From a virus: a stretch of DNA of 21,339 nucleotides. The DNA is taken from the IMG/VR virus record IMGVR_UViG_3300017788_000210, positions 1 through 21,339 of that record; one strand, given 5' to 3'. A model generated the notes under the pieces. That model ran no database searches and was not told where the DNA came from. It worked only from the letters and a program-made list of their open reading frames with translations. A program made the position numbers and the translations under genes. The stretch's first letter is position 1. Every line of letters starts with the position of its first letter. This document shows, in pieces, positions 18,945 to 20,537 of this stretch.

Positions 18945-19515
18945 ACTTGACCGAACCACCACGAAGATTAAAATCATGGAGCTGGTTACGCGATGTACCC
19001 AACTGCTCAATGTGCAGAATAACATGAACGCACTGCAGATAGAATTCTGTGCTGAGAACATCCTAGATAAGATGTGGATGTATAGTCTTGAAGACATTCA
19101 GTTGTGTTTAGATCGTGGTGCTATTGGTGCATACGGTACGATATACAACCGCATCGACCCGGCTACTATCCTTGCATGGTTTCCACTTTATGACCAGCAA
19201 CGCCAAACCATAAGCGAAGCGATGAATGAAAATGCAAAGCAGCAAAACAACATCTATGAAATGTTTCAACATCCGCAGGTGCTGGACGCTATCCAACAGG
19301 CAGCGGATAAGTTGAAGATAGAAGAAGCCCCGGCACAGGAGGCAAAGCGTGTCACACCGTCACGCCTTGAACAAATGCTAATGGATGAATACGATGCGCT
19401 GCCTTCATGGGATAACGACATGCGCTTTCGTGTGTATAGCAACAGACCTTACCAGTTCACTGAGTACAGGAAGGAACGCTACAAAGAATTGATAGAACAA
19501 GAAAGCGAATACTGA
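18913..19515 (+). CDS. Replication-associated protein, DUF6633-like
   Basis: A 200-aa protein from ATG at 18913 (MKQDKIALLRKLDRTTTKIK). The frame is open to an ATG at 18826, but that start would overlap the initiator gene by 119 bases, against 32 here. Helical blocks include LQIEFCAENILDKMWMYSLE, DIQLCLDRGAIGAYGTIYNR and ILAWFPLYDQQRQTI. The 'm-y-L-x-D-I-x-L-C-L-x-R-x-x-x-G-x-Y-G-x-x-Y-x-R-I-D-x-x-x-I-x-x-W' stretch resembles a family (DUF6633-like, from memory) found next to phage replication genes in Bacteroidetes. It may be a helicase loader or primosomal partner of the initiator; this is inferred. The stop overlaps the methyltransferase start (TGATG). Confidence 0.5.
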   Translation: MKQDKIALLRKLDRTTTKIKIMELVTRCTQLLNVQNNMNALQIEFCAENILDKMWMYSLEDIQLCLDRGAIGAYGTIYNRIDPATILAWFPLYDQQRQTISEAMNENAKQQNNIYEMFQHPQVLDAIQQAADKLKIEEAPAQEAKRVTPSRLEQMLMDEYDALPSWDNDMRFRVYSNRPYQFTEYRKERYKELIEQESEY

Positions 19516-20537
19516 TGACACACGGTTCTTTATTTAGTGGCATAGGTGGCTTTGATTTAGCTGCCGAATGGATGGGTTGGGAAAACAAGTTTCATTGCGA
19601 GTGGAATGAGTTTGGGCAACGTGTGCTTCACCATTACTGGCCTGATGCCGAATTATTCACCGATATAACTAAAAGCAACTTTACAAAATATGCAAACAGA
19701 ATTGATGTTCTCACAGGAGGATTCCCTTGTCAACCCTACTCATCCGCAGGAAAGCGACTTGGCAAAGAAGACGAACGCCATCTATGGCCTGAGATGTGTC
19801 GCGCAATTAGAGAGATTAAACCAAGTTGGGTCGTGGGCGAAAACGTTCGCGGCCTTATTAGTTGGAATGGAGGGTTGGTATTCGAAGAGGTGCAAGCTGA
19901 CTTGGAAGCTGAAGGGTACGAAGTACAACCGTTCTTACTTCCAGCTTGCGGTGTCAACGCTCCCCACAGAAGGGATAGAATCTGGTTTGTTGCTTCTAAC
20001 TCCAACAACAAGGGAGGAAGTAATGGACTTGGACAAGTTCAAGGCGAGAATGGAGAAATATCCCAATGGAACAACGATGCCGAATTTAGCAACACAAGTG
20101 ATGGGGCTTCTTCCGACTCCAACAACCCAAGAACCAATGTCGGAGTGCAGGATAAAGAATGGCAGAAGGGAGACGGCATCAGGGGATTCGCACAGTCTAA
20201 ATCTGGGCAAACTTGCGGGAATGGGGATGCTACCAACACCAACGGCACAACTCACAAAACACGGACACACGGAACAATATTGGAACAACAGAATTGGGAA
20301 AAGGCAAATGGATTTATCAATGTGGAATGCAGAAACAAATGGCAAAACTTCCCAACTGTCTCCCCAATTTGTAATGGAGATGATGGGCTTTCCGACCGAT
20401 TGGACTCTATTACCTTTTCTAAATGGAGAAACGAATCAATCAAAGCAGGAGGCAACGCAATAGTCCCCCAAGTAGTTTATCAAATATTTAAAGCAATAGA
20501 ACAGCATGAAAGACTACGACAAGCAAAAAGAGATTGA
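19515..20537 (+). CDS. C5-cytosine DNA methyltransferase (Dcm-type)
   Basis: A 340-aa protein. Motif I is GSLFSGIGGFDLA (4-16). Motif IV is TGGFPCQPYS (67-76) with catalytic Cys72. Motif VI is VGENVRGL (107-114). Motif VIII is HRRDRIWFVA (151-160). An Asn/Ser/Gly-rich target-recognition region spans about 165-270. Motif X near the end (SIKAGGNAIVPQVVYQIFKA) completes the family set. It methylates C5 of cytosine in a sequence-specific way, most likely to protect phage DNA from host restriction; no cognate nuclease is adjacent, so it appears to be an orphan. The recognition region shares its bases with a long ORF in the +1 frame. It lies between replication genes and small ORFs that lead to TerL. 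Confidence 0.95.
   Translation: MTHGSLFSGIGGFDLAAEWMGWENKFHCEWNEFGQRVLHHYWPDAELFTDITKSNFTKYANRIDVLTGGFPCQPYSSAGKRLGKEDERHLWPEMCRAIREIKPSWVVGENVRGLISWNGGLVFEEVQADLEAEGYEVQPFLLPACGVNAPHRRDRIWFVASNSNNKGGSNGLGQVQGENGEISQWNNDAEFSNTSDGASSDSNNPRTNVGVQDKEWQKGDGIRGFAQSKSGQTCGNGDATNTNGTTHKTRTHGTILEQQNWEKANGFINVECRNKWQNFPTVSPICNGDDGLSDRLDSITFSKWRNESIKAGGNAIVPQVVYQIFKAIEQHERLRQAKRD
19690..20463 (+). CDS. Overprinted ORF inside the methyltransferase (+1 frame)
   Basis: A 257-aa ORF lies entirely within the methyltransferase gene in the +1 frame (ATG 19690, TAG 20461-20463). It reads like a real phage family: GSWAKTFAALLVGMEGWYSK and RCKLTWKLKGTKYNRSYFQL (about 48-87) are followed by repeated LLPTPTT/MLPTPTA segments. 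The end is GKTSQLSPQFVMEMMGFPTDW (about 223-243). 'LPTPTxxD...LSPxFVxxMMGFPxxWT' is a pattern I recall in phage methyltransferase-associated proteins. The conserved enzyme motifs VI to X in frame 0 lie over these blocks. Translation is not shown: there is no obvious separate promoter and the ATG has only a generic A-rich context. It may be a true second product or a by-product of frame-0 conservation. Confidence 0.4.
   Translation: MQTELMFSQEDSLVNPTHPQESDLAKKTNAIYGLRCVAQLERLNQVGSWAKTFAALLVGMEGWYSKRCKLTWKLKGTKYNRSYFQLAVSTLPTEGIESGLLLLTPTTREEVMDLDKFKARMEKYPNGTTMPNLATQVMGLLPTPTTQEPMSECRIKNGRRETASGDSHSLNLGKLAGMGMLPTPTAQLTKHGHTEQYWNNRIGKRQMDLSMWNAETNGKTSQLSPQFVMEMMGFPTDWTLLPFLNGETNQSKQEATQ

Follow-up and report, generated by a model that had tools for sequence, protein, structure and literature searches.

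A candidate two-polypeptide C5-cytosine DNA methyltransferase in a viral genome, with motif IX in a nested +1 reading frame

The window (the whole stretch of viral DNA analyzed, 21,339 nucleotides) carries on its plus strand an open reading frame (ORF) of 340 amino acids, here called alpha (19515..20537), which has the features of a C5-cytosine DNA methyltransferase with motifs I–VIII and X. It matches PF00145 (E=3.5e-44) and phrog_363 (E=1.3e-69), and its recognizable motifs are I (SLFSGIGGFD, 19527..19556), which is conserved in alignment A2; IV (PCQ, within GGFPCQPYS, 19716..19742), which holds the catalytic cysteine and has an invariant core in the same alignment; VI (ENV); VIII (PHRRDRIWF, 19962..19988), seen in the sequence and in A2; and X (GNAIVPQ, 20451..20471). 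The predicted structure has pLDDT values mostly of approximately 90 in the core and the C-terminal helix, and its fold is that of the large domain of M.HhaI, with a Z of 19.7 and an rmsd of 3.3 over 199 aligned residues. Residues 166–314 of the model are below a pLDDT of 50 throughout, and frame 0 evolves neutrally over codons 157–276 and indistinguishably from neutrally over codons 277–300. Alpha is thus not classed as a single-chain C5-methyltransferase, since the model and the codon ratios give it neither an ordered target-recognition domain nor motif IX.

Inside alpha, the +1 frame contains a second ORF, beta (19690..20463, plus strand), which runs over 257 codons from the ATG at 19690 to the TAG at 20461–20463 and comprises the region between motifs VIII and IX together with motif IX. 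An earlier note, written from the sequence, had described this 257-codon ORF within the methyltransferase as reading like a recognizable phage family, and both statements hold: beta matches phrog_1008 with E=1.3e-17 (residues 3–239 against positions 36–279 of a 329-position profile) and with E=1.2e-19 at the DNA level, and it is counted as a member because the match spans most of its length. The overlap was said to extend over motifs VI to X; it does so, but it begins earlier, before motif IV. The phrog_1008 family is labeled 'DNA methyltransferase' although it represents a +1 subunit without catalytic motifs, a label that may mislead annotation.

Beta has no match in Pfam up to E=10 and none in NCBIfam, and no relative of solved structure was found either with its profile A1 (E up to 10) or with the Jamun_40 ORF. 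Its predicted structure is poor (pLDDT 55.5), which fits a subunit dependent on its partner for folding but proves nothing by itself. Three LPTP-like blocks occur along beta, at 19993..20004 (LLTP), 20110..20121, and 20230..20241 on the plus strand. In alignment A1, each beta protein has from zero to five such blocks, mostly two to four, and their count correlates with protein length (r=0.67); the varying number suggests a modular recognition region.

The likely start of beta is the ATG at 19690..19692 (+1 codon 59), which is preceded by an A-rich sequence. In all 108 homologues, an ATG lies between the last +1 stop and codon 66, compared with 51% of synonymous shuffles. An ATG at codon 59 or 60 is found in 30/30 sequences that have a +1 stop at codons 50–52 versus 21/78 of those without one, a comparison between related sequences that does not amount to a strict probability. 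No Shine-Dalgarno sequence precedes the ATG at 19690, which would be nothing unusual in a host from Bacteroidota, as the relatives suggest it to be. The first approximately 45 codons of beta (frame-0 codons 59–104) have no protein-level selection in the +1 frame (dNN/dNS 0.88, CI 0.69–1.07), and because of this and the missing Shine-Dalgarno sequence, the true start could lie further downstream.

Beta remained open in none of 20,000 permutations of the frame-0 synonymous codons, which contained 7.9 stops on average. Across 66 distinct homologues sampled with the frame-0 query, the +1 frame has an average of 0.86 stops, mostly the natural terminal stop, versus 7.3 expected, and the +2 frame has 20.3 versus 22.5 expected. 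Among 80 homologous loci fetched by the frame-0 protein alone, 78 keep an uninterrupted +1 frame over the full region, with lengths of approximately 210 to 380 codons, and the longest +2 open run is 22–74 codons; the stops in close relatives that would have spoken against the ORF are thus nearly absent. In the other two loci, L081 and L083, beta is interrupted by one in-frame TAG each. In L081, the TAG sits where relatives have a glutamine (YFQL), and a second ORF of this phage reaches its long form only with readthrough of TAG, so TAG recoding is possible there.

Sampling from the other side, the +1-protein profile A1 was searched against 84,980 species genomes, and the best 80 loci, mostly from Bacteroidota with a few others, were examined. 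An intact frame-0 methyltransferase surrounds the +1 ORF in 79 of these 80 bacterial loci, and in the remaining one, frame 0 ends approximately one codon short of the length taken as intact; as the loci were picked by the +1 protein, an intact frame 0 was not forced. In nearly all homologues, 16–34 codons of alpha remain after the +1 ORF has ended. Both ORFs have been annotated by some depositors, for instance as Tadhana_54/55 in the Paenibacillus larvae phage Tadhana and in PhiXhv-28; most depositors annotate frame 0 only.

Selection along the gene was measured in an OLGenie-style analysis of 46 pairs with no shared sequence, in which every possible change was classed by its effect in both frames. 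The +1 dNN/dNS is 1.01 over codons 1–50 and 0.88 over codons 53–104, with frame-0 dNN/dSN values of 0.11 and 0.17, respectively. Over codons 105–144, the ratios are 0.34 in the +1 frame and 0.27 in frame 0, i.e., there is selection in both frames; this dual-coded stretch (19827..19946, plus strand) encodes motifs VI and VII in alpha and VGSWAKTFAALLVGMEGWYSKRCKLTWKLKGTKYNRSYFQLA in beta. Constraint is found in the +1 frame only over codons 157–276, the region between motifs VIII and IX (19983..20342, plus strand) that is predicted to be disordered in alpha, with a neutral frame-0 dNN/dSN of 0.97 [0.87–1.08] and a +1 dNN/dNS of 0.53 [0.45–0.63]. Over codons 277–300 (motif IX), the +1 ratio falls to 0.22 and the frame-0 ratio is 0.85 (CI 0.63–1.26), while codons 303–326 (motif X) have a frame-0 dNN/dSN of 0.08. 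Plain pN/pS counting agrees with these ratios.

The same succession is visible in the variation of codon positions across 108 homologues. Frame-0 first positions are the third positions of the +1 frame, and coding in the latter therefore predicts more variation at first than at third positions. Codons 1–96 are most variable at third positions, like an ordinary frame-0 gene; third positions are suppressed from approximately codon 109 to 144; first positions are more variable than third over most of codons 157–276; third positions are almost fixed (0.043) and first positions variable (0.232) at codons 289–300; and the frame-0 profile returns at codons 313–324 (motif X). Synonymous constraint is thus strong where the +1 frame is conserved. 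The claim of the earlier note that both frames are conserved over the same bases stands for codons 105–144 but not for the region between motifs VIII and IX, where only the +1 frame is under selection.

A distant family of 79 sequences, that of Burkholderia phage BcepC6B and coliphage N15, repeats the pattern. Its median +1 open length is 318 of 345 codons, and its +1 ratios are 1.02 at codons 1–80 and 0.47 at codons 85–165; codons 169–272 have 0.66 in the +1 frame and 1.01 in frame 0, and codons 273–308 have 0.34 and 0.36, respectively.

The stretch of beta with the lowest +1 ratio corresponds to motif IX (20338..20403, plus strand). For alignment with HhaI, the phmmer query was the frame-0 protein with codons 161–301 read in the +1 frame; NGKTSQLSPQFVMEMMGFPTDW of beta aligned to NGKTRKLHPRECARVMGYPDSY of HhaI (267 onward, 'vNGKTrkLhPrecarvMGyPdsy'), followed by motif X of alpha. 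The local score of motif IX against HhaI is low (8.7 bits) and weak taken alone, and its place in the protein is as expected. The chimera with the +1 segment scored 174.5 bits against PF00145 versus 152 for frame 0 alone; among the control chimeras, deleting the segment gave 149.6 bits, shuffling it 152.3, and reading it in the +2 frame 155.9. No such gain was obtained for the N15, Lacticaseibacillus, and Acinetobacter phage cases, in which the naive junctions shortened the spacing between motifs IX and X.

Other arrangements of the same block occur in actinophages. In the mycobacteriophage Seagreen and 28 related sequences, a single frame runs from the catalytic core through the LPTP blocks and motif IX to motif X. 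The motif-IX stretch PEWMMGWPAGWV has a third-to-first position variation ratio of 6.62 in these 29 in-frame sequences, which is frame-0-like, and the matching stretch of the present family has 0.18; the selected frame thus follows the block and not the position. In Jamun 39/40, OKCentral2016 78/77, and Vagabond 6/5, the catalytic ORF stops soon after motif VIII and the block continues as a gene of its own, so that the +1 family does exist mostly free of the catalytic ORF in some phages and fused to it in frame in others, which argues for a joint function. The frame of Jamun_40 is open for 96 codons further upstream, across the end of Jamun_39 (L180:1569-2579), and its annotated start is probably too far downstream.

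A +1 ORF over motifs VI–VIII (SETLPTSGMTRNG...) also persists in the actinophages with an in-frame block (L176:855-2387 and related sequences), and third positions are suppressed over it at codons 121–165. In Seagreen, this ORF ends in a TAG approximately 5 nt ahead of the in-frame LLPTP, and a link to the block could come from a −1 shift or a restart.

Both frames of the locus are conserved and under codon-level selection, and the methyltransferase motifs are partitioned between them, with motif IX in the +1 frame. The favored explanation, held with a probability of approximately 0.88, is that the locus gives rise to a C5-cytosine DNA methyltransferase of two polypeptides, in which the target-recognition and motif-IX subunit is nested out of frame. 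Alpha would supply the catalytic large domain with motifs I–VIII and the motif-X helix, and its middle would be an unconstrained, probably disordered connector. Beta would be translated from its own internal start and would contribute the putative target-recognition region and motif IX, which are elements of the small DNA-reading domain in M.HhaI. The two chains would assemble into a single active enzyme that presumably methylates the DNA of the phage itself, most likely to protect it from restriction by the host.

The possibility that no second protein exists, and that the open +1 frame follows from the composition of frame 0, had been raised by the earlier note as a family arisen from mis-framed Dcm genes; the label of phrog_1008 and the habit of annotating frame 0 alone are in its favor. 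It retains next to no probability, and the codon-level tests rule out such an artifact: none of the shuffles stays open, the same bases combine frame-0 neutrality with purifying selection in the +1 frame in two families, and in-frame and partly free-standing versions occur elsewhere. The members of phrog_1008 form a true coding family under an imprecise label, and the alternative of a real second protein is supported by the shuffles, the retention, and the codon-level selection. Judged from these sequence patterns, the +1 frame is a real protein-coding gene and not a mis-framed artifact.

Two other explanations accept the +1 coding. The +1 segment might be produced solely by frameshifting on alpha, with a +1 shift after motif VIII that would put the core, the recognition region, and motif IX into a single chain; this would fit the start of the +1-only stretch right after motif VIII and the actinophages in which core and block can share a chain. 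It is nevertheless considered highly unlikely, because +1 codon selection is already present at codons 105–144, upstream of any such shift, because every homologue retains an internal ATG downstream of its last +1 stop, and because the product would have no motif X, given where the +1 frame ends. The chance is slimmer still that the +1 protein is real and unrelated to methylation, for instance anti-restriction or regulatory, and overprints a dispensable part of the methyltransferase. A neutral and disordered frame-0 middle is free for overprinting, and an overprinted HNH endonuclease has been described in the phage methylase of ShiLan, so unrelated nested genes do occur in such genes (PMC11855218). 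Against this stand the presence of motif IX in the +1 frame and its absence from alpha, the block in frame with motif X in actinophages, the retention of the +1 ORF with alpha in 79/80 loci, and the improbability that a C5-methyltransferase without recognition region and motif IX acts alone. An HNH insertion of the ShiLan type was rejected for this locus, as the +1 ORF has no Pfam match and is kept in 78/80 relatives.

It appears somewhat likely that the block with motif IX changed frame in evolution, being in frame in actinophages and nested in the +1 frame in phages of Bacteroidota, Firmicutes, and proteobacteria, and that a large share of the 'single-gene' cytosine methyltransferases of phages consist of two subunits, with the specificity entirely in a mostly unannotated frame. 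Phage cytosine methyltransferases like alpha are currently annotated and cloned as single genes; if half of such an enzyme, with the part that reads DNA, is in the other frame, codon-optimized or purified frame-0 versions would be inactive and specificity predictions from frame 0 meaningless. Among same-strand overlaps in viruses of prokaryotes, the family would also rank with the longest and the most widespread. The nested layout recurs in many phages and prophages, where annotation has mostly missed it, and no description of an overlapping gene of this case in phage cytosine methyltransferases was found in the open-license literature. The gene is a clear natural example of selection that changes frame within a single gene, from frame 0 to both, to +1, and back to frame 0.

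Several known systems share parts of this organization. The hidden HNH endonuclease of ShiLan is also a second protein in another frame of a phage methylase gene whose in-frame reading is featureless there (PMC11855218); it is a homing insertion that occurs sporadically and has no relation to the enzyme, whereas beta is conserved, co-retained, and apparently part of the enzyme. PHROG 1008 includes beta by profile, and its label is silent on an out-of-frame motif-IX subunit inside a methyltransferase. M.AquI (CYCGRG) is a naturally split C5-methyltransferase divided in the variable region (PMC3404938), and it resembles the layouts of OKCentral2016 78/77 and Vagabond 6/5. Its small subunit has motifs IX and X, whereas here motif X belongs to alpha, and the beta gene lies entirely within the alpha gene. 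For artificially split M.SssI, M.HhaI, and M.BspRI, complementation is best with a C-terminal fragment that begins after motif VIII and ahead of the recognition domain (PMC3404938, PMC3439449). This is the same division point as between alpha and beta, although those enzymes are engineered and keep motif X in the C-terminal fragment, unlike here.

The closest counterpart is M.EcoHK31I (YGGCCR), reportedly the subject of a 1995 paper by Lee, Kam and Shaw; its smaller polypeptide is specified within the gene of the larger one, from a different reading frame. M.EcoHK31I is a two-polypeptide C5-methyltransferase with motifs I–VIII and X in the large subunit, where its target-recognition domain is also placed, and motif IX in the small one (PMC3404938). 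Alpha likewise has motifs I–VIII and X without IX, and at the sequence level, an out-of-frame polypeptide inside the large gene carries motif IX; the comparison rests on the division of motifs and the nesting layout, not on the small-subunit sequences. The corresponding region of alpha is neutral and predicted to be disordered, in contrast to M.EcoHK31I, and the conserved block lies in the +1 frame. The system in the window is accordingly filed as a variant of M.EcoHK31I, because its large frame is without a constrained recognition domain, and with it the oddity of M.EcoHK31I becomes a testable general architecture.
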